Assembly: GCA_026400835.1 (NCBI GenBank) | Contig: JAPLOA010000035.1 | Coordinates: 62,001-126,000, forward strand | From: Planctomycetales bacterium | GTDB lineage: Bacteria; Planctomycetota; Planctomycetia; Planctomycetales; Planctomycetaceae | Length of the DNA: 64,000 bases | Direction: 5' to 3' | In this document: in pieces, positions 434 through 23,070 of the stretch | How the letters are laid out: every line of letters begins with the position of its first letter | How positions within the stretch are numbered: the stretch's first letter is position 1 | The notes under the pieces: generated by a model | What the model was told of the DNA's origin: nothing | Seen by the model: only the letters and a program-made list of their open reading frames with translations | Databases searched by the model: none | Made by a program: the position numbers and the translations under genes

Positions 434-2149
434 TCATTCAAAGCTCAAATCGAAGTGATCAAGAAACTTCTCAAGCGCCGACCGATTCATCTCAATGGCC
501 GATGGATCCTGCATGGCGAGTGCCTCTTCAAACCCGCCCAGAAGTGTCTCCAGCAGCAGTCGAGGATCCCCGGAGAGTTCCTGGTAGATTCGCTCGGCTC
601 GCTTGATCAGATGACGATTGCCCTGGTCTTCTCTCGGATCGGCTTTCAACTCCTGAAGCTTTGCCACGGCCTCCTTCAGCTGAGCATCTGTCAGGTTCTG
701 AGCGTGCCGCGTGATGACACAACTGGCCCTGGCATTCGACTCTGCAGCCCCGGCTTCGACTTCAAGAATCCCGTTGAGGTCATAAGTGAAGCGGATGGTG
801 ATACGTTGCCCGGCGGGACCTCGCGGAATCCCCTTTAGCTCGAACTCCGCTAGAAACAAATTCTCTTCAACACGGCGACTCTCTCCCTGAAAGACTCGCA
901 CACTGACACTGGTCTGATTGGCATGAGCTGTGAAGAACTCTTCCATTCGACTGATGGGAATTGTCGAATTGCGACTTATCAACGGGCTAAAGTAACCAGC
1001 GCGAGAAGTCCCTGCGATGTCCTTTGAAATCTCCACGCCCAATGTGAATGGACAAACATCAGTCACGACCATATCGGTCACAGCTTTGTCCAGCTGCACC
1101 AGGCCACCCTGGATTGCCGCCCCGAGTGCCACCACATGATCGGGGTCAAGAGTGCAACGCGGGACGCGTCCAAACACTTCCGTCAGCATTTCAGAAATCT
1201 GAGGCATCCTCGTAGCACCACCGACAAGAATTACGTCATTGATCTGCTGACGAGTCAATCCGGCATCGGACATCGCCCGCTGCAGCGGCAGTCGTGTTTT
1301 TGCGAGTAGTGAAGCGGTCCAGCTCCGGAATGATTCCGCCGAGACAGGAATGGATTCTGACGTCTCCGAAATCCGCCCGTCATTATCCGGAAATCGAACA
1401 ACCGTGTCTGATCCGGTACTCAATCTTCTTTTCGCGGACTCACACTCGTGCAACAAACGTGAAATCAGCTTCGGCGTGCGAGTTTCGCCATGTTCAAAAT
1501 TCATGCCCTTGGCGACGAGCAATTGATTCGCAAGATTTCGAGTAAAGTCTTCGCCACCCAGAAAGATTTCACCGGCCGAAGATCGAATCTCCAGAGTCGA
1601 CTCGAACTGATCCAGAATTGACACATCGAATGTGCCGCCGCCAAGATCGAACACGAGAGCAATTCGCTCCTGGTTTAGTTCGTGCAGCCCATACGCAATG
1701 GCTGCCGCGGTCGGTTCATTGATAATGCGACGAACATTAAAGCCTGCCAGTTGCCCCGCATGGATCGTCGCCTTTCGTTGCAGATCGCTGAAGTAAGCTG
1801 GGACCGTGATTACAGCCTCAGCGACTTCCCGGGCAAGGAACTTCTCCGCATCGGCTTTTAGTGACTTGAGCACCAGCGATGAAAGCTCCTCGGCTCGAAA
1901 CATTTTGTCGGCCACCGACACAGTCCGGTCTGTCCCCATCATTCGCTTGAATACGGTGGCACAGCGATCAGGAGCAACAACCTGAAGTTCTTTAGCTGGC
2001 TTACCAATCAGAAGCTTGCCATCATGATCAATCCCAACAGCCGAAGGCGTGAGAAGCTCATTCAACGAGTTCGGAATCAGTTGCGGACCATCCGGCGACA
2101 GCCAGGCCACAAGCGAATTCGTCGTTCCCAGATCAATGCCAACAATCAT
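434..2149 (-). CDS. hscC: HscC-type Hsp70 chaperone
   Basis: Cytoplasmic ATP-dependent chaperone of the Hsp70 superfamily. The N-terminal ATPase domain has the phosphate-1 motif GIDLGTTNS at about residues 4-12, an [11 protein letters not shown] stretch, the phosphate-2 motif [11 protein letters not shown] and the adenosine motif [10 protein letters not shown] short substrate-binding domain follows ([10 protein letters not shown] onward). At about 571 residues it is shorter than DnaK (about 640). Segments such as [22 protein letters not shown] and [11 protein letters not shown] closely match E. coli HscC as I remember it, including the C-terminal half. I chose the ATG at 2149 because it gives the usual Hsp70 N-terminus; an in-frame start lies at 2197. 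No dnaJ or grpE is adjacent. The next gene on the strand is an unknown protein cut by the window edge. Confidence 0.88.
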
Positions 2150-2393
2150 GATGTCTCTCACCATGTCGCAAAAAGTACACTGCCAGTTCTCGGCCACAGA
2201 TCCGCCCCAGCCCTGAACTTCTTCGAAGCATAGTAACGAGTCGACATTTGGTGAAGGGGACCCTGAGACCCACCCGTAAAACCGAGTGATCCCAAACGTT
2301 TTCTCAGGCCTGCACAGAGGTTAAATGGCCCGAACAGTTTGAAGAAAACCGACTCAGGGCCGGTTCAATCGAGGCCGCTCAAGTACCCCGTTG

Positions 2394-3347
2394 TTACTCC
2401 AGATTGCGTTTGCAGGGATCTGTGTCCGCGAGGCCTCTCAGGCCCCGCAAACGATCGATCGCGGCGTCTTCCCAGGCGTTCGGCTCTGCCTGGAAGAATC
2501 CGATCGCCGACTGATAGGTGCCAGCAAAACCAGCGGGCATGGTTTTCTCGGAGAAACTCATCAGACGCAGCTTGCGATAAACCCCCGGAGCATCCGTGTA
2601 CTGAAACCAGACATCTTCTGAAGCAGGATGTTGACGCAGCAAACAAACGGCTCCATAGCGATTGGCGGAATCATAAACCGCCATCCAGCGAGCGGTGCGT
2701 TCGAGTCCTTCGCCGGGCTTCGCTCCGTCCGGTAGAAACGAACCTCGCTTCAGTACGCCGGTGTCGTCTCCGAACAGGTAATCCGTCATGCCTTGGGACC
2801 ACGCATACATCAGCGGATAAGACAACTTCAGCCGAACGTCTTCCTGAGTTCTCATGCGGACCGTTTCGATCAGAACATCGTTCTCAACGAAAACTTCAGA
2901 CTCAAGATGTACCGCTCGAATCACTGATGACCTCTTCAGGCGAAATGACTTCCCGATAAGATTTGCCCGCGGAAGATCAGGCGCCACGCGACTTCCGTCC
3001 ACGAAGAACTGCACCTGCGATATATACTCTTTCTCGACCTTCCCCGGCTGCCCCGGCACATCCAGAAAATGTGCGGTCCCCAGCAGGCCAACTCCTTCGA
3101 TGTTCAGCACAGCCCCATACGCACTATCTCTGGTAGCGATCGAATGAGTTTTGTATTCAATTCCGCTCAATGTCCAGAGCTTGGGGCCATCAATCTGAAA
3201 TGTCACATTTCCGATTGCGCAATTCACCAAATCAGGGCGTACGGCTTCCGTGTCGCTGGATAGTTGTTCGTCCGCCGAACAGATCATCGAACAGAATTGC
3301 AACACAATCAGCAGAGGTCCCGGACGATCGATCACACGCCTGATCAT
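2394..3347 (-). CDS. Secreted hypothetical protein
   Basis: A 317-residue protein with a plausible N-terminal signal (hydrophobic stretch GPLLIVLQFCSMICSA, cleavage near residue 25). The rest alternates hydrophobic and polar residues as in a beta-sandwich, and I see no catalytic motif. It starts 31 bases after the stop of the DUF1501 gene on the same strand, so the two are probably co-transcribed and both exported. Planctomycetes often place secreted proteins of unknown role next to DUF1501 genes. I do not recognise the family and assign no function. An alternative start downstream in the leader cannot be excluded. Confidence 0.7.
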   Translation of the reverse strand: MIRRVIDRPGPLLIVLQFCSMICSADEQLSSDTEAVRPDLVNCAIGNVTFQIDGPKLWTLSGIEYKTHSIATRDSAYGAVLNIEGVGLLGTAHFLDVPGQPGKVEKEYISQVQFFVDGSRVAPDLPRANLIGKSFRLKRSSVIRAVHLESEVFVENDVLIETVRMRTQEDVRLKLSYPLMYAWSQGMTDYLFGDDTGVLKRGSFLPDGAKPGEGLERTARWMAVYDSANRYGAVCLLRQHPASEDVWFQYTDAPGVYRKLRLMSFSEKTMPAGFAGTYQSAIGFFQAEPNAWEDAAIDRLRGLRGLADTDPCKRNLE

Positions 3348-3378
3348 GATGATGCCCCTGCGCCCGCAAAATCAACGA

Positions 3379-4737
3379 TCAGACCAGTTCGCTGATCGGA
3401 TATCTGTGATCCACCAGATATTGCGGACGTCCGGCCTGATCAGGAATTGTCGCACTGAGCACATCAATGCCCAGACGGTTGTAAAGAGTCGCGAAGACTT
3501 CCTGATAATGGACCGGGCGATCCTGTGGCACTTCTCCAAGACGATTGGTTGAACCAATCACCTGCCCCATTTTCATCCCGCCTCCGGCCAACAAACAGGA
3601 GGACACCTGAGGCCAGTGGTCGCGGCCTCCGTCCTTGTTGATTCGCGGAGTTCGTCCGAACTCACCCCACGCGATAACGCTGACGTCCTGATCGAGTCCT
3701 CGCTGATGCAAATCCTCGACGAGCGCCGTAATTCCCTGGTCAAGCTTAGCTAGCTGAGTTGGCAGGCGTTCAAAATTCGCCCCGTGCCGGTCCCAGCTTC
3801 CGAAAGACAACGTGACGCAGCGAACTCCGGCTTCGACCAGTCGCCGAGCCGTCAGGAACTGATCCATCCAATGCGGCCCCGCATCTTCACCAAACGCTGG
3901 ATCCGCACTGCCTCGACCGTAACGATCTCGCAACGCCGCATCCTCTTTCTCCAGATCCAGCGCCTCGACCAGCCTGCTGGAGGTCAAGACATCAAACGCC
4001 TTTTGAGTCAGTGCATCGACGCCGCGGTAAGACTCCTGAGTATCGACCTGACGGCGGAATTTATCGAAGCTGGTTAACAGCCCCTGTCGATTGCGAAGCT
4101 GATCAAGAGTAATCCCGTTCAGCCGCATATCGGCCATCCCCTGGCCTTCCGGTTGAAACGGCGCGTAAGCAGTTCCAAGAAAGCCCGCAAAGCCCGGATT
4201 GCAGTAAGGATCGTGTCTAGTTTTTATCGTCAGACCAACAAAAGCTGGAACCGACGGATCAACAGGCCCCTGCAAACGAGCGACTGCAGAACCGAGCGAC
4301 GGATGATTATCCTGCCGACCTTTCGGTCCGATTGGATATCCGCTCATACAAAGATCGGACGCATGCTGATCAGGACAACCATGCAGCGAACGAATGATGG
4401 CAAACTTGTCCATCATTGTCGCCAGCTTTGGCATGTATTCGCAGATTTCAATCCCCGGGACGTTGGTCGCAATCGGCTTGAACGAACCACGAATCTCCGG
4501 AGGAGCATCCATCTTCAGGTCATACATATCCTGATGCGACGGGCCGCCGGACAGATAGATCATAATCACAGCTTTGTGTGACAGTTTCTTTCCCGCCGTG
4601 CCTGCGGTGGATTGCTCAGCCTGAAGAATCTGAGGCAATGAGAGCCCGCCCATCGCCAGTCCGCCAATCTTCAAAAACTGGCGTCGCGAATGACCGTCAC
4701 ACAGCGCCGATTGGCGTCGGCCAAGAATATGCAGCAT
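3379..4737 (-). CDS. DUF1501 family protein, Tat-exported
   Basis: A sulfatase/alkaline-phosphatase-fold protein of the DUF1501 family, abundant in Planctomycetes and of unknown substrate. A twin-arginine signal (SRRQFLKIGGLAMGGLSLP) lies near the N-terminus, so it is probably exported folded. Family landmarks are IYLSGGPSHQDMYDLK, a HASDL motif (Gly/His-rich region), WDRHGANF and the C-terminal WGEFGRTPRINKDGGRDHW. I chose ATG 4737 because it places the Tat motif about 20 residues in; the frame is open up to 4824. DUF1501 genes usually pair with a PSD1/DUF1549/DUF1553 gene. Here the neighbour is instead a different secreted protein just downstream. Confidence 0.88.
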   Translation of the reverse strand: MLHILGRRQSALCDGHSRRQFLKIGGLAMGGLSLPQILQAEQSTAGTAGKKLSHKAVIMIYLSGGPSHQDMYDLKMDAPPEIRGSFKPIATNVPGIEICEYMPKLATMMDKFAIIRSLHGCPDQHASDLCMSGYPIGPKGRQDNHPSLGSAVARLQGPVDPSVPAFVGLTIKTRHDPYCNPGFAGFLGTAYAPFQPEGQGMADMRLNGITLDQLRNRQGLLTSFDKFRRQVDTQESYRGVDALTQKAFDVLTSSRLVEALDLEKEDAALRDRYGRGSADPAFGEDAGPHWMDQFLTARRLVEAGVRCVTLSFGSWDRHGANFERLPTQLAKLDQGITALVEDLHQRGLDQDVSVIAWGEFGRTPRINKDGGRDHWPQVSSCLLAGGGMKMGQVIGSTNRLGEVPQDRPVHYQEVFATLYNRLGIDVLSATIPDQAGRPQYLVDHRYPISELV

Positions 4738-11648: not shown

Positions 11649-12812
11649 ATGACTTCCATTTCAACTTTGAATAGTGAACCGCAGCTCACCCTCCGGGGAA
11701 AAGAAGGCCCCGGCGATTCCGGTTCGAATTCGTCGCCGTTCCCCGAGGGATCCTGGGTGCTGGTTCGCAGCAATGCGGACGGGAACTCCAGTCATCGTCT
11801 TAACGTGGTTGGACCGACATTCTCCGTTGGACGACATCCTTCCAACAGCCTTTGCCTGAGTGACAGTACAGTCTCCGGACGACATGCAGAGATTCTGACG
11901 ATCAACAAGGATCTGTTCGTAAGAGACCTTAACAGCACAAACGGCACACTTCTGAACGGTCGACGTATTCAGCATCTGACGGGGCTCCGCTCCGGCGATG
12001 TTCTGCATTTCGGGAGCGTGATGTATACGCTTCAGTCTTCCACCGACGAATGCACCAGTTCCACAGTCACCGCTGATGTCTCGGCCGATGCACTCGCACA
12101 GCTTCAATTCGATAAACTGCTGCGACGTCCCGCAGTGCGACCATATTTTCAACCGATTGTGCGTCTGAGTGATGCGGCTCGAGTCGGTTTTGAAGTCCTG
12201 TCACGCAGTTATCTGCTGGGACTGGAAACGCCGGAAAAAATGTTCCGTGTCGCCGCGTCACGAAACGTGGAAGCAGAACTCAGTCAGATCTGTCGTACCG
12301 AAGGGCTGCGGATTGGCGAATCTTTGCCGCAGACACAATTTTATCTCAACACGCATCCGGCCGAGATTGGCGGAACTGAACTATTCTCTTCGCTGGAACG
12401 ACTTCGATCTGAATTTCCGGAAATGCAGATCATGCTTGAGGTTCACGAGGGTGCAGCAGCCTCAGGTACGTTGTTGAAGGAGATTCGTCGAGTGACTCGC
12501 GAACTGAAGATGGGGCTGGCCTATGACGACTTTGGCGCTGGCCAGGCACGCGTCCAGGAACTCTTCGAAGTTCCGCCGGATGTCCTGAAGTTCGATGTCA
12601 GGTTTGTCCATGGTCTGCCGTTCACGACTCCTCAGCACAGAGGCACCATTCAGTCGCTGATCCGGATCGTGAAAGATCTCAACGTCGTACCGCTTGCTGA
12701 GGGCATTGAAACAGTCGACGAAGCTTCAGTCTGCTTTGAGCTTGGATTTGAACTGGCTCAGGGCTTTTTATTTGGCCGTGCGGAAACTGTTGCTCATTGG
12801 ACGAGTTCCTGA
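11649..12812 (+). CDS. FHA-EAL domain signalling protein
   Basis: A 387-residue cytoplasmic protein. Residues about 50-130 form an FHA phosphothreonine-binding domain with GR at 61-62, SGRH at 76-79 and NSTNGT at 95-100. Residues about 150-387 form an EAL cyclic-di-GMP phosphodiesterase-type domain. The signature is EVL (182-184) instead of EAL, but the residues usually needed for metal and catalysis appear present: N234, E264/E267, D293-D294 in DDFGAG, K314, D316, E351 and E354 in AEGIE, and Q371. It may therefore be active, which needs testing. ATG 11649 is preferred over the in-frame GTG 11610. First gene of a three-gene run with an AAA+ ATPase and a kinase-tubulin fusion. The FHA domain is a natural reader of that kinase's phosphorylation; this is inference. 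Confidence 0.88.
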   Translation: MTSISTLNSEPQLTLRGKEGPGDSGSNSSPFPEGSWVLVRSNADGNSSHRLNVVGPTFSVGRHPSNSLCLSDSTVSGRHAEILTINKDLFVRDLNSTNGTLLNGRRIQHLTGLRSGDVLHFGSVMYTLQSSTDECTSSTVTADVSADALAQLQFDKLLRRPAVRPYFQPIVRLSDAARVGFEVLSRSYLLGLETPEKMFRVAASRNVEAELSQICRTEGLRIGESLPQTQFYLNTHPAEIGGTELFSSLERLRSEFPEMQIMLEVHEGAAASGTLLKEIRRVTRELKMGLAYDDFGAGQARVQELFEVPPDVLKFDVRFVHGLPFTTPQHRGTIQSLIRIVKDLNVVPLAEGIETVDEASVCFELGFELAQGFLFGRAETVAHWTSS

Positions 12813-12886
12813 CAGCTCGAAGTTCCCGGATCCCTGCATCGTGATCGGATTCCAATCTTATTCTCTGTCGCTGAAACATCCTCCAA

Positions 12887-14251
12887 ATGTTAATGCAACG
12901 TCCTCCTCAAATCAGATCAAACGATTCGGCATTGGTGACCGCTCTTCTCGCCGGAGAAAGCTTCTGGCCATCAGATCCGGCGACAATGCATGAGCTGGGT
13001 TTGTCTGAGCCCTTTCTGGAAGCCATGATCTGCCGAATCCTGCGGTCCGCCGGAAATCTGTCCGGAAGAACAATTGCGAGCGAACTCTGTATCCCGTTCC
13101 GCATGATCGAAAGTCTGCTGGAGCGACTTAAGAATCGCCGCATGGTTGCCCATTGTGGCAGCGCCAGTCTGAATGACTATGTCTTCGGTTTGACGGACGA
13201 AGGTCGCCGTCGTGCAGAGCAGTGTCATATCGAGTGTTCTTATGTGGGGCCCGCTCCGGTGCCCCTGGCCGATTATGTGATTTCCGTCGAGGCTCAGGCG
13301 ATCTGCGATGAGCCTGTTCGCCGCGAAGAACTGGACGATGCGTTTTACAATGTTTCGGTGTCCGAAGAGTTGATGGACATGCTGGGCCCCGCGATCAACT
13401 CGGGCAGCGGATTGTTTCTTTACGGAGCTCCGGGGAACGGCAAGTCGACACTGGCTCGTTGCCTGACAAGTTGCTTCGCCCGCGAAATCTGGATCCCGTA
13501 TGCGGTCATGGACGGTCGAGAACTCATTACTCTGTTTGATCCGGCCTACCATCAGGTAGTCCAGCAGCCGATGGATGGCTTGTCCTATGATCGTCGCTGG
13601 GTGCGGATTCGCCGACCGACTGTTATTGTGGGAGGCGAACTGACGCTGGACAATCTTGAGATTCGCCATGACTCGACCTGTAACATCAGTGAAGCCCCAC
13701 TGCAGATGAAGAGTAACTGCGGCTGTCTTCTGATCGACGACTTCGGCCGGCAACGAGTAAAGCCCGAAGAGTTGCTGAATCGCTGGATTATTCCGCTCGA
13801 AAACAAACACGACTACCTGACTTTGGCGACAGGAAAAAAAATTCAGGTTCCGTTCCAGCAGCTTATCATCTTTTCGACAAACCTTGATCCGGCAGATCTG
13901 GTGGACGAAGCTTTCCTTCGCCGCATTCCTTATCGAATCGAGATCGAAGATCCGGATGCTGAGGAGTTTCATCGGCTGTTTCAGATCGCTGCCGAAAAAC
14001 TGGGTTGCAATTACGATCCTGAAGCCGTTGAGCATTTGATCAATAGTTGTTATCGCGAACAGTCACGGCCGATGCGTCGCTGCCATGCTCGTGACCTCCT
14101 GCTGCAGGTTCGAAGTTATTGTTTGTACCGCGGTCTGGAGTTTGAAATGCAACCTAAGCACTTTGATCGAGTCTCTGAGTGTTTCTTCACGCGCGTTCCG
14201 ACTCGCCAGCTGAATGCCTCTTTCGAAATCGCTCGGCCGACTTGTCGCTGA
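12887..14251 (+). CDS. Winged-helix AAA+ ATPase
   Basis: A 454-residue protein. The N-terminal ~110 residues contain a helix-turn-helix/winged-helix-like region (RTIASELCIPFRMIESLLERLK...). A AAA+ ATPase core follows: Walker A GAPGNGKST at 180-188, Walker B LLIDDFG at 281-287, sensor-1-like FSTNLDP near 329-335 and candidate arginine fingers R345/R346. An insert with RRPTVIVGGELTLDNL precedes Walker B. A helical lid lies at about residues 385-454. It starts 75 bases after the FHA-EAL stop, and its own stop overlaps the ribosome-binding site of the next gene, so the three are very likely co-transcribed. The type resembles uncharacterised AAA ATPases found near pilus or signalling genes in diverse bacteria. 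Its substrate is unknown; remodelling the neighbouring tubulin-like protein is a hypothesis. Confidence 0.85.
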   Translation: MLMQRPPQIRSNDSALVTALLAGESFWPSDPATMHELGLSEPFLEAMICRILRSAGNLSGRTIASELCIPFRMIESLLERLKNRRMVAHCGSASLNDYVFGLTDEGRRRAEQCHIECSYVGPAPVPLADYVISVEAQAICDEPVRREELDDAFYNVSVSEELMDMLGPAINSGSGLFLYGAPGNGKSTLARCLTSCFAREIWIPYAVMDGRELITLFDPAYHQVVQQPMDGLSYDRRWVRIRRPTVIVGGELTLDNLEIRHDSTCNISEAPLQMKSNCGCLLIDDFGRQRVKPEELLNRWIIPLENKHDYLTLATGKKIQVPFQQLIIFSTNLDPADLVDEAFLRRIPYRIEIEDPDAEEFHRLFQIAAEKLGCNYDPEAVEHLINSCYREQSRPMRRCHARDLLLQVRSYCLYRGLEFEMQPKHFDRVSECFFTRVPTRQLNASFEIARPTCR

Positions 14252-14257
14252 AAGGAG
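14251..14257 (+). promoter_or_regulatory. Ribosome-binding site fixing a GTG start
   Basis: AAAGGAG lies 7 bases before GTG 14265 and overlaps the last base of the preceding stop codon. It decides the start of the kinase-tubulin gene, against the longer frame from 14214 that would overlap the ATPase gene, and implies tight translational linkage. Confidence 0.85.
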
Positions 14258-14264
14258 AATTCAC

Positions 14265-17200
14265 GTGTTAAAAACTGAGATACAGGCCACCGCGCTGCTC
14301 GACGAGACAGTAACAAACACTTCGACGGTCGCAGGCGCAACAGAGATTGCCGGATATCGACTGCAATCACGGATCGGTATGGGAGGATTCGGGGAAGTCT
14401 GGCGGGCGATCGGCCCCGGCGGTTTTCCGAAGGCGGTGAAGATTCTTTTCGGCAGCCGCAACGGTCCGCAGGCGGAAACTGAACTCCGCTCTATGAATCG
14501 CATTTGCGAACTGCGACATCCGTTTCTGCTCACCATTGAGCGGGTTGAAATCGTTGATGGCCGCGTTATCATCGTGAGTGAGCTCGCTGACAAAAGTCTT
14601 GATGACCGCTACCGTGAAATTGCGGCCTCTGGTCAGAAGGGAATCCCGCGGGAGGAACTGATTGGATATCTTCGTGACGCTGCGGATGCTCTGGACTTTA
14701 TGTCCGACCAGCATGGACTGCAGCACCTTGACGTCAAGCCGGAAAACATCCTGCTGCAGGGCGTGCATGCCAAGATTGGGGACTTCGGACTGACGAAAAA
14801 TCTGAACTCTTCCGGTCATTCCATCGTCAATGGTTATACTCCTTTGTATGCGCCGCCGGAATTGTTTGACGGACAGCCGGAACGAGGCAGTGATCAGTAC
14901 AGTCTGGCGATTGTGTATCAGGTGATGCTGACGGGCGTCCCTCCCTTCAACGGACGATCGGCAGCGCAGTTGACGGCTCAACATCTGAGGAGTGCTCCGG
15001 ATGTTTCGGTGATGCACCCATCGGATCGAGCAGTGGTGGCTCGGGCTCTGTCGAAGAATCCTAAAACGAGATTTGCGAGCTGCAGGCAGTTCATCGATGA
15101 ACTTGCGAGGCGACGGTCTGTGAATTCTTCGCTGCCGAAGTCAGGAGGTCTCGCGGAAACAGAGGCTCCTCGTCCTCGAACTGACCTCGTCGAAAACATC
15201 AAAGCCTCGAAAAATCGTGATAAAGTCCTGCCGGCCCCAAAACCGCTGCGCCCACCGACCAACCCGAGCCAGCCGTGGATGGTGCGGCCGACGGTCTTTA
15301 TTTCCATCGGGGGTCTTGGTGCGTCGGTGCTTGCGGAATTGCTGCGGCGAATCCGGCAGGGAATGCCCGGTGATTTGCCTCCGTCAATTCAGTTCGTCTG
15401 CATTGATGCAGACTCCGCCCGGATTGAAGCCCTGGAACGTCGTGTTGCGATTGAAAAAACCAGCACACTCACAACCGTACGAACTCCTCTGAAGACGTCT
15501 CACGAGTATCGAAAAACGTCCGGCGAGTATCTGAACTGGCTGAGTCGAAGGTGGCTGTTCAATGTTCCGCGATCGGGCAGAGTTGAGGGCATGCGACCGC
15601 TCGGGCGTCTGGCGTTTATCGATCATTCGGACCTGATTCGCACGCAATTGGAGAAGGCAATCGACAGCGCCTTCGATCTTCAATCCATCGAAGCCTCGAA
15701 GAATGTCTCGTCACTGCCTTTCTCCAGCGATGCGATCGATATCGTTCTGGTGGGGGCAACTTCCGGCGGAACCTGCAGCGGCTCACTGATCGATTCCGCA
15801 TGGATGCTGCGTTCCATACTGGCGGCCCGTCGATTGCCACCTTGCTGTCTGTCGGCAATAATGCTGCATGGAACGGAAAATTCGAGTCGAACGGCTGATA
15901 TGCAGGATGCAAATACGCTCAGTTTTCTGCAGGAACTGCACCACGTCAGTCTTCCCGGCTTTGAGCGTCCGGGAGCATCAATGCCGTCCGAGGATGATCA
16001 GGCATCAGCCATGCCTTTTGACGAAGCGATCTTTGTTCATCTCGGCGATGACCTCGCCGATATCGATTTCCAGACCGGCACGGATAAAATTGCACAGTAT
16101 CTGGAGCTGCGAAGTGTCACGAAGGCTCGTGCGGAGATCGATGGGTGGCGAAATGCATCTGCGATGCAGGCAGATGATGATGGCTCGCTGAAACTGCGAA
16201 CGTTCAGCCTCGCGAAAGTCGCCTTCGAATCGTGGGATATTGCCAACAGTGAATCGCAGTCGCTGACGCGGTCACTGCTTCAGCGGTGGGTCGCTTATGC
16301 ACGTGGTGAAACGAAGGACTCGATCGCACGAACAAGTCCTCTGGGGGTTCTTCTGCATGACCTCGCGCTGACGGAGCAAGGTATTGTGGAAGTTGTGCCG
16401 CGTCTGCTGAATGCAGAGAGAACTCGACGAATCGAAGAGTACGCATCGTCGATCTGGAGTCGCCTCGGTTCCATATCAAATGCCGCAGAAATCCCCGGAC
16501 AGATCGGAGCCATGATCAGTCAGGAAGCAGGTTTGAGCGATCAGAAGATTGCGATCACAGCCGTTATTGAGGATATCCGCAGGGATCTCTCCGCTGGTCT
16601 GGAGCGTTCGATTTCCAAAGTTGCAACGCATCTTCGGACTTTGTTGGAAACCCACGGCCGTATCAATGCCGCCGATAACGTAGTGAACGTGCTTATGAAG
16701 TCCATTGATCAGTCAATCTCGGTGAACGCAGGTCAGCAATCGGAATTACGCTCTGCATTCACAGATCTCTGCAACTTGCTGACGGCTCAGGCCGAGTCAT
16801 CGCCGGAATCTGTTGACGAAAACTCACTTCGCCCTTACTGTCGACAGTACTGTATGTTGCTGGTTTGTCAGACGGTCTGCCAGAGCGTGGGAAATCATCT
16901 TCGAAATCTCCGTGACGGAGTATTCAGATTTGGTACCGAGAAACTTTCACTCCTGCGTCAGCGGATCTCCACTCTGTCTTCAATGGGATCTGAGGCGAAT
17001 TCTGATGACGATACGTTTCCCGATCACATGCTCGATGCGTTTGACGAACACCTCACAAAGACTCGCCGCTTTGAGTTGTCGGCACTGCTGCAGCGAGATC
17101 CACAGACATCAGATCTTCAGGTTTTGAATTCGGAGGCTGCCAGCTTTCTGTTCAAGAATATGGGACCGGAGTCAGAAGTACTGCCGGGAATCGGGCCTCA

Positions 17201-17495
17201 CGCGAACGTTGAAATCCCCAACTCAGCGCGGCCAGTTGTACGAAATGTTGGCGGAGGTCAGCGTGTACTGGTGGCTCTTCCGGAACAAATCCCGGGAGAA
17301 CCCTGGAAACAGCGAATTCAGGCAGAGTTTGGGCCGTGCGTTTCCCTGTGCTCAATGAGTCGCCCTGATATCACTTTGCTATATGAAGTCGAGGGGATCG
17401 CGATCTCAGCTCTGATTGACAACCTGTCCCATCTGAAACCGAAAGTCGTCGAACTCGCCGAGCGACTGCATACACGACAGGATATCCACTGGTAG
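14265..17495 (+). CDS. Ser/Thr protein kinase fused to a tubulin/FtsZ-like domain
   Basis: A 1076-residue cytoplasmic protein with no clear transmembrane segment. Residues about 28-290 are a Hanks-type kinase: glycine loop RIGMGGFGEVW, AVKI lysine, HLDVKPENI catalytic loop (HLD in place of HRD, catalytic Asp kept), GDFGLTK and YAPPELF. A proline-rich linker leads at about residue 330 to a second module starting VFISIGGLGASVLAELLRR. Further on comes GATSGGTCSG (497-506), which resembles the GGGTGSG nucleotide-binding signature of tubulin/FtsZ GTPases. This fits the bacterial tubulin-like (Tubulin_2) family as I know it. The C-terminal ~500 residues are largely helical with no other motif. Start is GTG 14265 with a strong ribosome site. 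Last of three linked genes. Assembly of filaments and control by the kinase are inference. Confidence 0.82.
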   Translation: MLKTEIQATALLDETVTNTSTVAGATEIAGYRLQSRIGMGGFGEVWRAIGPGGFPKAVKILFGSRNGPQAETELRSMNRICELRHPFLLTIERVEIVDGRVIIVSELADKSLDDRYREIAASGQKGIPREELIGYLRDAADALDFMSDQHGLQHLDVKPENILLQGVHAKIGDFGLTKNLNSSGHSIVNGYTPLYAPPELFDGQPERGSDQYSLAIVYQVMLTGVPPFNGRSAAQLTAQHLRSAPDVSVMHPSDRAVVARALSKNPKTRFASCRQFIDELARRRSVNSSLPKSGGLAETEAPRPRTDLVENIKASKNRDKVLPAPKPLRPPTNPSQPWMVRPTVFISIGGLGASVLAELLRRIRQGMPGDLPPSIQFVCIDADSARIEALERRVAIEKTSTLTTVRTPLKTSHEYRKTSGEYLNWLSRRWLFNVPRSGRVEGMRPLGRLAFIDHSDLIRTQLEKAIDSAFDLQSIEASKNVSSLPFSSDAIDIVLVGATSGGTCSGSLIDSAWMLRSILAARRLPPCCLSAIMLHGTENSSRTADMQDANTLSFLQELHHVSLPGFERPGASMPSEDDQASAMPFDEAIFVHLGDDLADIDFQTGTDKIAQYLELRSVTKARAEIDGWRNASAMQADDDGSLKLRTFSLAKVAFESWDIANSESQSLTRSLLQRWVAYARGETKDSIARTSPLGVLLHDLALTEQGIVEVVPRLLNAERTRRIEEYASSIWSRLGSISNAAEIPGQIGAMISQEAGLSDQKIAITAVIEDIRRDLSAGLERSISKVATHLRTLLETHGRINAADNVVNVLMKSIDQSISVNAGQQSELRSAFTDLCNLLTAQAESSPESVDENSLRPYCRQYCMLLVCQTVCQSVGNHLRNLRDGVFRFGTEKLSLLRQRISTLSSMGSEANSDDDTFPDHMLDAFDEHLTKTRRFELSALLQRDPQTSDLQVLNSEAASFLFKNMGPESEVLPGIGPHANVEIPNSARPVVRNVGGGQRVLVALPEQIPGEPWKQRIQAEFGPCVSLCSMSRPDITLLYEVEGIAISALIDNLSHLKPKVVELAERLHTRQDIHW

Positions 17496-17822: not shown

Positions 17823-19319
17823 ATGGTGCCATTGAATCGTCGCGACATGCTTCAGTTAAGTGCCGCCTGCGGCCTGAGCACGGCAATTGGTGAGGCTGCG
17901 GTTTCCCAACAGGCCATCGCTGCGGACTCCGCGATCACACCGGCAGTTCGGGAGCAATCACCAATTCAGACGCGAATGTTCTGGACGTGGGACCATAGCA
18001 CGGAATGGGCTCTGAACCGCCTTGGTGCTCACACGCATGGGTCGTGCAACGAGTACGGACGTACGACTCAGTCGTTCATCGACGACTATTCTGCCCTGCT
18101 GCGCTGGTGCGGGCGCAATGACGTCGATGCTGTTGTTGTCTGGGGGCTCCTGCGGGATGGCCACGGCGGCCTTGAAGCAGCCAGGCGACTTTGTGAAGTC
18201 GCGATTAAAGAGAACGTTCGTCTGTTGTGTGGCGTCGGGCTGAATGCCTATGGTGGTGTCTATTACGAAGGGAACTCGCCGTACAACCTTGAGCGGCACT
18301 TACAGGCAAATCCCGATCTCTATGCAGTCGACGCCAATGGTGATTCGACGAACTTCAGCATTGACGCCATCGGAACCAGAGTCAGTCTCAGCAACACCAG
18401 CACACCCGGTCCACGTGGATTCTATCACGCCTGCCCATCGCGAACCGAGAATCAGGAATTCGTGGCCGAGTCTCTGACATGGTTGTTCAAAAATCTGGAA
18501 CTCGGTGGTGTTCAGATCGAAACCGGTGATACCGGCGTCTGCCAGTGTTCGTTGTGTCGGGACCGCAGGAAACATCCTGCAGACACGTTTTCGTGGGAAG
18601 ACATGGCCCTGATGTATCCTTTGGCCGCCGAGGCAATTCGCTCTGTCGCACCCGAAGCGTGGATCGTTTGCGAAACCTATTCTCATCCCGAACCGTATCA
18701 AGGTCCCAAAGCGGCACCCGGCTTCGGTGACGGAAAAGCGGCGTGGGCTGATGAGTCGCTGGAGAAATTTCCACGAGGAGTCTTCATCCAGTGGGTTGCG
18801 GACCGCTATTTGAGGCAGGGAGATCCAGACAGAACCTGGACTGACAAAGGGCGAGTCTCCGGCAATGGACTGCGTCATGTCATGCGAGCCCACGTGGGGA
18901 CTGACTGGGGCTGGGGAGCGTTTCGCGGCGAAGTGGCTCTGGAGTGGATCGCGAAAATGGTACAGCAGAGCGCGGCTTCTGGATTCGATGGTATCTCGTT
19001 GTTTGGCGAAGTGTCGACGTTTCATACGGGTGCTGAGTTGAACTATCTGGCTCTCGCGGATTTTGGCAGTTCCGAAAATCCGCAATCTGATCAGGACAGC
19101 TTTATTGAGCGTATCGCGGGGCCACTCCTGGGCGGCCCGTCACATGCAGTCGACTTTGTGAGTTTCGCCGGATTGCTGGATGCTCGCTTTCCGGACAGAC
19201 GTAAAGACATCCCGACTGCAATCGCCAGTATTCACGGCCGTCTGGCGGCTATGCCTCCCGACATAGCCCGACGCTGGTGCTGGCTGGCCAACCAGTTGGC
19301 GTCGTTTGCTTACGTTTGA
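17823..19319 (+). CDS. Tat-exported TIM-barrel-like glycoside-hydrolase-type protein
   Basis: A 498-residue protein with a Tat-like N-terminus (NRRDMLQLSAACGLSTAIG), so probably exported. The body alternates helices and strands in the manner of a TIM barrel (DVDAVVVWGLL, ENVRLLCGVGLNAYGG, GGVQIETGDTGVCQCSLC, AWIVCETYSHPEP, GVFIQWVADRYL, GFDGISLFGEV). Acidic residues stand at strand ends as in glycoside hydrolases. The CQCSLC cluster recalls DUF4838-type proteins, but the match is loose. ATG 17823 places the Arg pair near the N-terminus. It converges with the minus-strand STAND-type remnant and overlaps it by 10 bases. The substrate is unknown; a role in glycan degradation is only suggested by the fold. 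Confidence 0.65.
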   Translation: MVPLNRRDMLQLSAACGLSTAIGEAAVSQQAIAADSAITPAVREQSPIQTRMFWTWDHSTEWALNRLGAHTHGSCNEYGRTTQSFIDDYSALLRWCGRNDVDAVVVWGLLRDGHGGLEAARRLCEVAIKENVRLLCGVGLNAYGGVYYEGNSPYNLERHLQANPDLYAVDANGDSTNFSIDAIGTRVSLSNTSTPGPRGFYHACPSRTENQEFVAESLTWLFKNLELGGVQIETGDTGVCQCSLCRDRRKHPADTFSWEDMALMYPLAAEAIRSVAPEAWIVCETYSHPEPYQGPKAAPGFGDGKAAWADESLEKFPRGVFIQWVADRYLRQGDPDRTWTDKGRVSGNGLRHVMRAHVGTDWGWGAFRGEVALEWIAKMVQQSAASGFDGISLFGEVSTFHTGAELNYLALADFGSSENPQSDQDSFIERIAGPLLGGPSHAVDFVSFAGLLDARFPDRRKDIPTAIASIHGRLAAMPPDIARRWCWLANQLASFAYV

Positions 19320-21138
19320 TCAAGGCCAGGGGATTGACGGAGAATGTTTCTTTCGGCCTGAATAAGTTCGACAAAGCCTGCTTCGTTGTGTCTCATGAGA
19401 TACCGAATTCCATAGCGGAACAGTCTCAGAGCGATCTCCAATTCACGACGTTTTGTGGCTCGATGTTCGACAGCCAGAACATAGCCCTGAAGCACGACCG
19501 AGGTGACTCGATCCGAATCAATCTTTGTAAGGGACTTGACAAGCCCATCCGCCGGATGCAGCAGAGGATTGACAGACCCGCGTTTACTCTGGACGAGGTC
19601 GCCGGGAACTCCACGATGCTTAGCGACCTGTTCATAGATATCAAACGGCATGTTGATCCGGGCTTGAAATCGATCGTAGTCTTCACTGAGTCGGAAGATC
19701 AGGCCAAACATCGATGCGGAGTCGTCAAGTTGGTTTGGGGCGTCCTGATCGTGGGCCAGCGCGTCGCGAATGGAGGCGAACCCCTCTTCCCAGCGATGCA
19801 GTGCCAGTAAGCAATTGCCCCGACTCAACTTCGCAGCCACATGGTCCGGCGCAACTTGCAGGACTTTTGCGTAGCACTGCAGGGCTTGCTTGTGGTCCTT
19901 TTTGATTTCAGCGAAATAGTACCCTGCCTGAAACCATTCGGTCACGGCTTTCGATGCAGCCGCCTTCTCCTGCAAAGACTTTGCGTGGCTAACGATGTAA
20001 CCCTGAGCTTCGGCGAGTTCCAGGTCATCGTCCAGCAGTGTTGTACGCGGGGGAGTTTGGGCTGCAGATCGATCCCCGTCCGCATCAAAGTACAACTGCA
20101 CAGAGCCACTTTGCGCAGCCAATCGCAACTTTTCATTCTCATTGAGGCGGTACCACATCCGCAGGAACCCAATCAGAAGTCTGCTGTCTTTCAATTGTAA
20201 GTCAGCCGCATTAAAGGTTCGCTGAGTTCATAACAGGTCTCGCGCCCCTTCTTCTGCGACGTCAGGTATCCGATCTCGGCAAGATTACGAACCTGCTTGC
20301 CGATCGACTGTTCAGGCAGCAACAGTCGGCGTGCTATCTCTTTGGGATTGAGTGTGCAATGTTCACCGCACAGCAGTTCAACGATCTGTCGCTGCAGCGG
20401 TGAAACAGAGTGGATACGTTCCTGATAGAATGGCGTCAAATCGTCCAACATTCTTTGAAACGGAGCCATCAACTGGTCCAGAGAGTCCCGCCTATGAAAC
20501 CTGCCCAGCACTATGCAGACGCGATGGTTGCCTCCGGCCAGATCATGGATCGCACGTACTCGGCGCTGCCCTTCTGGCGTGTTCAGAAAGTCGATAAGAT
20601 CTTTGTGATCTTTGAATGTTGCAATCTTCAGCAGCAGTTGTTGAGCATCCTGCAGAGACAGCGGCCGAAGAGGTATTGGCTGAAAAAAACCAAAAAACGG
20701 CTCGCTGCGATCGGATACAGCCTTAAACAACTGCTGGCTGGTGGCAATCAGGCAGGCAAACGGATGCTCCTGCAGCAGAGTACGCAGGTGATGTTGGCCT
20801 TCGCAACCAACAAAGATGGCCTCCAACAATCCCGGATTGGTCTGAGATGGAGAGAACCGCCAGACGAATTGCTCACTGGAAACACATAGCCGCCTGCTCG
20901 CAGCCTGCGTTGAGTCGTCAGATGGAGTGATATCCGATTGGGATGCTGCCGCCCACTCACAAAGTTCAGACCTGGTGCTCAGGGTGCAGATCAAACATGG
21001 GTCGGATTTCAGAACGTAGTCCACGTTAATCCCGGCGGAGGAACAGATACGTTTCAGATGATTGGAACGGTGGCGGTCAGCGGACAGACATTCATCGATA
21101 GCGGAGATGGGGATGATCAAAACAGCTCCTCGAAACAT
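19310..21138 (-). pseudogene. Broken STAND-type ATPase gene with C-terminal TPR region
   Basis: Two minus-strand frames, 20191-21138 and 19310-20194, meet in a 4-base overlap. The first carries the middle of a STAND-like NTPase (LIATSQQLFKAV, FFQPIPLRPLSLQDAQQLL), then a winged helix (NPKEIARRLLLPEQSIGKQVRNL), ending YELSEPLMRLTYN. The second begins LKDSRLLIGFLRMWY and continues into TPR-like helices. In this family those two ends normally join as one segment (SEPL.RL...LK.SR..LI..FLR.WY), and adding one T at the junction (near 20194) would restore the frame. The N-terminus is also missing: no Walker A was found upstream to 21.7 kb, where all frames are interrupted. I read this as a decayed gene, though two coupled genes or a sequencing error at the junction are possible. 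Confidence 0.7.
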
Positions 21139-21826: not shown

Positions 21827-22370
21827 TCAATCTTTCGTGACGACCTCGCCGAGGTTCAGCAGAACTCGACTGACCGCAGTCCATGCTGCGGCTTCTGAGG
21901 CGGTCACGTTGCCACGTAACTGCAGTTTGCCTTCAGGAGAACCTGTCACGAACTGGATCGAGTTCTGTCCGGGCTCTGCCGTGAATCGTTCTTTTTGTTG
22001 GCGAAGAAAACTGAGCAGTGTCTCCAACTCGTGTTCGCCCGGAGACCGCCCCGTGCATTGACGAAATGCGATGATGATGCGTTCCTGATCATCGTTGGCC
22101 ACCGCAACAGTTCGCATCGCGAGGGCTCGACTGCATTCCACGAACAGGTCTTCATTCAAGGTTGTCAAAGCCTGAATCGGAGTGTTCGAACGAACTCGAC
22201 GAACGCACGCCGCATCACCACGAGAAGTATCGAAGTTCTGCAACATCGAATATGGAGCCGATCGAAAGCGGAACGTGTAGATTGCTCGACGGTAGCGATT
22301 GGCTCCGGACTCCGTCGTCCAGGTCTTGGGACCATAGCTGGCCGGCGGAAGGAACAGAAAATCAGGAGCT

Positions 22371-22436
22371 GGTGGATAAACCGGTGGATAAACCGGTGGA
22401 TAAACCGGCGGATAAACCGGCGGATAAACCGGCGGA
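22371..22436 (-). repeat. 12-bp tandem repeat encoding VYPP
   Basis: Five full copies and one partial copy of the unit GGYGGATAAACC. The first three copies have T and the later ones C at position 3. On the minus strand this reads (VYPP)n inside the DUF1553 remnant at a point where intact relatives have a single VFPPQ-type loop. The clean copies indicate recent slippage expansion. Confidence 0.9.
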
Positions 22437-23070
22437 CCTCCGACTTCTCGATTCAACAATCCGCTGACAGCCAAAGCCACGTCGCGAACGATTTCTCCCG
22501 ACAACCTGAACCGAGGCCCTCGCGCCAGCAGACGATTGCCAGGGTCAAGCTGGTAAAGTTCTTTCGTGACATGTGAAGATTGTCGATAAGTCGCCGATTT
22601 CGCTATCAGACGATGGATGTGTTTGAAACTCCAGCGGTGATCCATCAGTTCCACCGCCAGCCAATCAAGCAGCTCCGGATGAGAGGGATACTCGCCCTGT
22701 GTTCCCAAATCCTCGGCCGTCTGCACCAGCCCTGTTCCGAAGTATTCCTGCCAGATCCGATTGACGATCGTGCACGCCGTTGTCGGAGAGCGGCGATCGG
22801 CAATTCAATCAGATCGAGGGACGCTCGCCGCAGCAATGTCCAGGATTCCGCGACCGGTGCTGGATGCAGGCCTTCTTTTTGAAGTCGCTGCAGAATAAAA
22901 CATGGATCGGATTCTTAATCCACTGCCGGCATTGCTCATCAGCAAACTCAGGGACTGGTGGAGAAACCGGAGTCATGAAGGCCCAATGCTGCTGATACTC
23001 GGCCCAGGACTGAATCCATCGTTCCAGCATATCAACTTGTTGAGCAGCCAGAGCCTTGCAGGTTTCACGA

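Follow-up and report, generated by a model that had tools for sequence, protein, structure and literature searches.

What a protein kinase might do when joined to a tubulin-like domain in bacteria that lack FtsZ, and why its gene should travel with those of an FHA protein and an ATPase, are questions raised by a three-gene locus of a Planctomycetales bacterium (Planctomycetaceae). The window, meaning the whole stretch of DNA analyzed, spans 64,000 nucleotides (assembly GCA_026400835.1, contig JAPLOA010000035.1, positions 62,001 to 126,000, forward strand). Within it, three genes encode an FHA-EAL protein, a winged-helix AAA+ ATPase, and a Ser/Thr kinase-Tubulin_2 (FtsZl1) fusion. The gene set is real and recurs across many planctomycetes, and the linker joining the kinase to the tubulin-like domain is enriched in a threonine motif on which the FHA protein may dock. 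That the products form a cytosolic phospho-docking scaffold, in which the kinase-tubulin protein would phosphorylate its own linker, the FHA protein would dock there, and a cyclic di-GMP (c-di-GMP) module would be recruited, seems to us an evenly balanced proposition. The genes are as follows.

11649 to 12812, + strand: FHA-EAL protein, 387 amino acids (Pfam), kept beside the kinase-tubulin gene
12887 to 14251, + strand: winged-helix AAA+ ATPase, 454 amino acids (Pfam, motifs, and model), in a clade apart from a class-wide paralog
14249 to 14264, + strand: gene 2 stop codon continuing as AAGGAG, followed after 7 bases by the gene 3 GTG (sequence)
14265 to 17495, + strand: Ser/Thr kinase-Tubulin_2 (FtsZl1) protein with long helices and a small C-terminal alpha/beta domain, 1076 amino acids, GTG start

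An earlier note on this DNA had described a same-strand trio with a ribosome site overlapping the stop of gene 2 and had read FHA, EAL, AAA+, kinase, and tubulin-like domains from it. Both descriptions are borne out, the first by the TGA at 14249 to 14251 that runs into AAGGAG and the second by Pfam and the AAA+ motifs. Because the TGA leads into this site, gene 3 most plausibly starts at the GTG at 14265, within a longest open reading frame that begins at 14214, inside gene 2. Genes 2 and 3 would then be translationally coupled.

The note had itself raised the objection that adjacency of the three families might be limited to this one genome, and that objection fails. Related loci were sought by a scan of GTDB contigs with an alignment made from set-bearing loci, and the best 80 of 155 were used for locus counts; these were picked by tubulin-domain similarity, not by neighbors, and 8 of the 80 are records already in the query alignment. 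Profiles from our own alignments served to locate FHA and AAA genes around them. Both genes accompany the fusion in 52 loci, the FHA gene alone in 16, the AAA gene alone in 8, and neither in 4; recurrence in 52/80 related loci argues that the set is not a product of chance. Where enough flank was available (at least 5 kb upstream and at least 4 kb downstream of the kinase-tubulin gene; 44 loci), the FHA gene is present in 44/44 and the AAA gene in 38/44. Records with all three genes include Botrimarina colliarenosi Pla108 (L140) and Lacipirellula limnantheis I41 (L163).

Gene order is fluid. The colinear order FHA-AAA-kinase occurs in 15 loci, the window included, a divergent FHA gene in 23, AAA-kinase-FHA in 7, and AAA-FHA-kinase in 5; there are three singletons, and 16 loci have no AAA gene. 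Among loci that keep the AAA gene, the arrangement has changed at least six times. In a phylogenetic tree that leaves out L103 and L107, 81 kinase-tubulin rows of the set type separate from 7 rows of another kinase-tubulin clade with a Shimodaira-Hasegawa-like approximate likelihood ratio test (SH-aLRT) support of 100; this and all other trees here are quick ones with SH-aLRT support only. L107 is labelled Candidatus Nealsonbacteria and carries a planctomycete-type fusion; it is probably mis-binned. The other kinase-Tubulin_2 clade, seen in L171 to L179, comes from another family, with tandem pairs in L171 and L179 and often several copies per genome, and stretches of about 20 kb around these loci hold no FHA or AAA partner apart from one weak FHA match at the far end of L172. 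Phylum-wide, Tubulin_2 was found in 11/294 genomes. Among loci from outside the class, L187 to L189 have no in-frame kinase and L190 does not match our own models.

The first gene supplies the putative reader together with an enzyme domain.

11823 to 12014, + strand: FHA domain (residues 59 to 122; Pfam range) with R62, S76, H79, and N98
12063 to 12065, + strand: Thr139 in the FHA-EAL linker, candidate phosphosite at a position kept in type I (defined below)
12111 to 12779, + strand: EAL domain (residues 155 to 377; Pfam range) with 8/8 checked catalytic residues

Pfam matches are clear for FHA (2.4e-18) and for EAL (1.1e-32). The four FHA residues, which we take to be those that bind phosphothreonine, are intact in all 66 covered relatives, 2 of 68 being cut at contig ends. 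The window EAL domain has E182, N234, E264, D293, D294, K314, E351, and Q371, presumably the catalytic residues, and so carries the set (E, N, E, D, D, K, E, Q) expected of a c-di-GMP phosphodiesterase. These eight positions divide the loci into type I (n = 46; 8/8 in 45 and 7/8 in 1) and type II (19 loci with at most 5/8); 3 loci (L109, L151, and L158) could not be typed owing to a frame break or truncation. At the Thr139-equivalent position, which lies C-terminal to the FHA domain, 3 of the 46 type I proteins could not be anchored; of the other 43, 42 have Thr there and none has Ser. Counting FHA linkers with a Thr anywhere (46/46 and 18/19) was uninformative and gave way to this position-specific count.

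Type II loci also have a characteristic neighbor. A GGDEF-like gene precedes the FHA gene, divergently, in 19/19 (with a gap of about 1.9 kb in L126), and its GGDEF motif is lost in all 19. By Pfam, the neighbors in L078, L104, L112, L160, and L170 are receiver-GGDEF-CBS proteins, and that in L079 has a CBS match and no GGDEF match. Of the type II loci matched by the degenerate-GGDEF profile, 14 had gone into its construction, and L115 scored 23 bits only against it. An alternative explanation of this recurrent family (22/80 loci) as antisense open reading frames was rejected, the proteins being GGDEF. A GGDEF gene lies near the set in 8 type I loci, and in L100, L101, L111, L130, L133, and L165 an intact-motif GGDEF gene is co-directional and directly 5' of the FHA-EAL gene; the window locus has none nearby, and the window genome holds 7 GGDEF and 3 EAL matches. 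In the sequence at hand the AAA gene accompanies 45/46 type I versus 5/19 type II loci. The type has changed at least five times on the kinase-tubulin tree, whose deep branches are poorly supported. The earlier proposal that the FHA-EAL protein changes c-di-GMP therefore survives in part: local control of c-di-GMP is plausible for type I only and, because the EAL domain and the neighboring GGDEF are both degenerate in 19/19 type II loci, it is not the general function.

The docking site that such a reader might use lies in the third protein.

15120 to 15227, + strand: disordered linker between kinase and tubulin-like domains (residues 286 to 321; predicted local distance difference test [pLDDT] below 50)
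15180 to 15191, + strand: TDLV (T306), a T-x-hydrophobic-hydrophobic sequence, the window copy of the linker motif

The motif T-x-[VLIFM][VLIFM] is present in 48 of 78 kinase-tubulin linkers, where shuffles expect 15.1 and reach a maximum of 25; L159, whose contig starts within the gene, and L168, with a long linker, are left out. The 67 less similar linkers give 42 against 12.8 expected (Z 10.1), and a scan of residues and spacings in these same 67 (20 residues, three spacings) found nothing else above Z 2.9. An alternative pattern, T..D, was rejected, being below expectation (14/78 versus 24.4). In the other kinase-tubulin clade, a control defined by tubulin-profile score and with partner absence directly seen in L171 to L179 and L084 only, the motif is at background (4/19 linkers, 4.8 expected), and an FHA-EAL search in six genomes of that clade's family gave no match. 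Both types carry it, in 30/46 type I and 11/19 type II linkers. T-x-hydrophobic-hydrophobic recurs within the FHA linkers of type II (14/19, 3.2 expected), and the narrower T[QE][VI][MILV] in 13/19 type II FHA proteins (0.2 expected). The +3 residue relative to the phosphothreonine is what many FHA domains recognize, and the hydrophobic +3 position of the linker motif fits this habit. Kinase-dependent FHA docking, which the earlier note had suggested, has thus gained evidence at the level of sequence.

The remainder of the kinase-tubulin protein is arranged as follows.

14355 to 15074, + strand: kinase domain (Pfam range) with a VAIK-type Lys, HLD for HRD, and DFG, kept in relatives
15297 to 16277, + strand: Tubulin_2 domain (Pfam) with a GGTCSG glycine loop and an alternating beta/alpha core in the model
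16554 to 17159, + strand: long helices (residues 764 to 965; AlphaFold2 model)

Pfam identifies Pkinase at 5.6e-28 and Tubulin_2 (PF13809) at 1.2e-28 (100.9 bits, cut-off 27). The N-terminal kinase was found in 79/80 relatives, the remaining one being L159, and among covered relatives the catalytic Lys is kept in 77/77, the Asp in 78/78, and the DFG Asp in 79/79. The kinase is of the non-RD type (HLD) in 78/78. The second objection raised in the earlier note was that structure prediction might show the C-terminal region not to be tubulin-like. The AlphaFold2 model, which does not settle this point, gives the tubulin part an alternating beta/alpha core, and both Pfam and the available text of PMC2875224 class the domain as tubulin-like. 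By our own reading, the helices of residues 764 to 965 look coiled-coil-like. A Foldseek comparison of the model with viral proteins is uninformative on the tubulin part, since almost all named rows among the matches listed are kinases.

The second protein is less readily placed.

13007 to 13195, + strand: winged-helix-like N-terminal domain (about residues 41 to 103; AlphaFold2 model)
13424 to 13447, + strand: Walker A GAPGNGKS, with its Lys in 55/55 relatives

Pfam matches to AAA are weak (PF00004 0.007 and AAA_16 3.7e-4, both below the curated cut-off). Walker A and B motifs, a sensor-1 Asn, and a pair of Arg are nevertheless present in gene 2; they recur, with the Lys of Walker A, in all 55 relatives kept after matches below 600 bits were left out. 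Walker B reads DD, not DE, in 55/55. In the model, three helices plus two strands make up the N-terminus (residues 31 to 110 have a pLDDT of about 90), a combination that we read as a winged-helix pattern. The best fold match is 8p49, an uncharacterized Pyrococcus protein (E 3.8e-13), followed by Lon, RuvB, and proteasome motors, and none of the libraries compared names a function. Phylogenetic comparison places the AAA proteins of set loci and 10 class-wide paralogs in separate clades (SH-aLRT 100; 59 rows, one of them the frame-artifact row L019core).

A genome-level survey of 59 genomes, the window genome included, ties this closer form to the fusion. Full-length copies (at least 53% identity) occur in 13/59 genomes (G000, 5, 11, 14, 15, 17, 22, 25, 40, 44, 48, 49, and 57), and exactly those 13 have a Tubulin_2 gene no more than about 7 kb from the AAA gene; the remaining 9 Tubulin_2 genomes are without the closer form. 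Partial matches were found in G004 (71% over 41 residues) and G028 (53% over 223), and other genomes have at most the paralog, whose identity is about 50% or lower; it occurs class-wide, 54/59 genomes giving some match.

These observations can be joined into a mechanism. The tubulin-like domain would bind GTP, self-associate, and gather kinase domains, which would phosphorylate the T-x-hydrophobic-hydrophobic Thr of their own disordered linkers. The FHA protein would dock on these phosphosites, its own linker Thr perhaps being phosphorylated too, and the EAL domain, accompanied in some loci by a GGDEF partner, would thereby reach the scaffold. The consequence would differ by type: local setting of c-di-GMP in type I, to which the window locus belongs, and a noncatalytic role in type II, where the degenerate EAL and GGDEF would together serve as a sensor or a structural element. 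For the AAA+ protein, which is co-inherited with the others, remodeling or resetting of the assembly would be the most likely role; this is the weakest step, and its basis is the fold and the co-inheritance. FHA docking on an autophosphorylated linker is the best supported step, as it would explain the invariant FHA residues, a motif that tracks the partnered clade, and the tolerated decay of the c-di-GMP enzymes. We advance more tentatively, as a possibility rather than an expectation, the full version, a cytoskeletal circuit leading from kinase to c-di-GMP in bacteria without FtsZ, in which self-written phosphothreonine docking sites on a tubulin-kinase scaffold capture a GGDEF/EAL module, with reset by a dedicated AAA+ motor, and in which the sister form with jointly decayed enzymes serves as a noncatalytic sensor.

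Several observations weigh against this proposal, in addition to the score-based definition of the control clade. The linker motif was spotted by eye and then tested on the same loci, a bias that the scan and the other-clade control limit and do not remove. Of another 17 dissimilar linkers of the set-bearing kind, taken from earlier-fetched loci of largely the same genomes, 9 carry the motif against 2.8 expected, with a shuffle maximum of 10. FHA linkers of type I show no enrichment of the hydrophobic motif (3/46, 7.7 expected), so that both proteins share it in type II only. Catalytic EAL is lost in 19/65 typed loci, and 14/19 type II loci show no AAA gene in the available sequence, several of them with short flanks. 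FHA-EAL relatives occur in 23/59 genomes, 11 of which have no Tubulin_2 at all, and the family must therefore have other uses. In L083, from a genome of the same genus (G004), positions 2119 to 3763 keep the FHA-EAL gene, and similarity then jumps from inside the AAA gene (window-equivalent 13176) to 17540, beyond the kinase-tubulin gene, with about 250 unmatched bases between; this locus appears to lack most of the AAA gene and all of the fusion, through either natural deletion or a faulty assembly join. In comparison with E. coli FtsZ the probability was 13%, the A4 profile against PDB sequences reached FtsZ at E 3 only, and the C-terminal half of the model is mostly helical. FtsZl1 proteins also lack recognizable T6-H7 and FtsZ C-terminal elements, according to the available text of PMC2875224, and these last two points make filaments uncertain.

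The same two features would suit a signaling hub without a cytoskeleton, in which the tubulin-like domain would act as a GTP-dependent switch or as a dimerizer, forming no filament, and the three proteins would run a conventional kinase-FHA-AAA+ phospho-relay. Variation of the loop Thr, which is Thr in 48/80 relatives, points the same way, whereas the three loop glycines are kept (80, 78, and 80 of 80) and all superfamily proteins characterized so far form filaments, in the words of the PMC2875224 authors' accessible text; we regard this hub as doubtful, if worth serious thought. Simple co-regulation, with genes kept together for shared expression and no physical complex, would agree with gene order and strand differing between lineages. 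It is an unlikely explanation, given that the Thr motif is enriched in the FHA-partnered clade and not in the other, and that proximity outlasts inversions that break a shared transcript, as with the divergent FHA genes.

More ambitious roles fare worse. Replacement of FtsZ in the budding division of FtsZ-less bacteria is suggested by matches to canonical FtsZ/tubulin (PF00091) in 0/59 genomes, the window genome included (control 13/14), and by a window genome whose sole Tubulin_2 match is the one described here. Yet any Tubulin_2 is found in just 22/59 relatives and 160/347 class genomes and has apparently been lost in the same-genus genome, so that it cannot be a general division protein, and we judge this idea very improbable. 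An anti-phage or conflict system, combining kinase, AAA+, and tubulin as in some GTPase-centered conflict systems, is quite improbable too. PADLOC kinase models match (mad6 at 2.2e-35, and PD-T4-6), as do IetA (1.8e-8, its best stretch covering 60 residues of the AAA protein) and TRIP13, both weakly, and tubulins occur in some predicted conflict systems in what could be consulted of PMC7159879. However, the best-scoring PADLOC kinase matches fall on the kinase domain, the scan of these three proteins yielded no complete system and nothing for FHA-EAL, and arrangements follow tree clades.

Parts of the set have been in print for some time. FtsZl1 was defined in 2010 by Makarova and Koonin (PMC2875224), whose available text notes the planctomycete kinase fusion and proposes membrane remodeling; a reviewer there pointed to a phosphodiesterase beside FtsZl1 in Pirellula staleyi, and the authors judged such cases too narrow. 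The FtsZl1 proteins of that text share the domain studied here, an N-terminal kinase in 4 planctomycete proteins, and a coiled coil after the tubulin core; their contexts (vWA, GTPase, OmpA-like, and kinase genes) are unlike the FHA-EAL/AAA one, and the term FHA is absent from the main text. The portions available of PMC9871819 and PMC11032199 mention a kinase or cytoplasmic kinases joined to a tubulin-like domain in planctomycetes, and the latter describes Planctomycetota as without FtsZ, as does PMC5147048, in whose accessible text the term FtsZ-like does not occur. Among the titles and abstract openings listed in searches of the openly licensed literature, we found no description of the conserved three-gene set. 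The statement in the earlier note that it knew of no characterized system with this set agrees with this result, with the qualification that the kinase-tubulin fusion and, through the reviewer, a phosphodiesterase neighbor were already on record.

Among better known systems, the actinobacterial GarA/OdhI proteins with PknB/PknG resemble the proposed arrangement, being small FHA proteins that a kinase phosphorylates on a Thr close to their FHA domain; they have no EAL domain, and their Thr is N-terminal to the FHA domain, whereas that of the window protein is C-terminal. SLMAP and MST2 of the Hippo pathway work, in the accessible text of PMC5663475, much as proposed here: autophosphorylation by the kinase modifies several Thr of its flexible linker, to which the FHA protein then binds. 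That pair is eukaryotic, has no tubulin domain, and uses the motif E/D-G-pT-M-x-R/K, and we claim no homology beyond the kinase and FHA folds. Conflict systems in the available part of PMC7159879 are alike in placing tubulin-family proteins in multigene systems and unlike in pairing tubulin with GTPases, HSP70, and vWA, with no FHA-EAL/AAA/kinase-fusion set.

Around the window set lie an FAD oxidoreductase gene upstream, on the opposite strand, and a further protein gene downstream; of the 20 other loci in the first comparison, most do not share these flanking genes. Promoter and terminator scans gave no signal above shuffles, and Rfam no match. Elsewhere in the window, an open reading frame at 21827 to 22726 (- strand) has a short PPVY tandem repeat, and two adjoining ones occupy 19310 to 21138 (- strand), one with winged-helix matches that are all below cut-off and the other with TPR matches, one of them just above cut-off.

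We found no paper that settles the role of FtsZl1 since its description in 2010. The joint loss of EAL and GGDEF motifs in loci where FHA and kinase stay intact suggests that docking is separable from c-di-GMP turnover, and the conserved partners together with the linker motif offer a directly testable biochemical prediction, which Thr and which reader, in FtsZ-less bacteria. Recurring as it does across many planctomycetes, the set points to an unstudied internal signaling and scaffold machine in bacteria without FtsZ.

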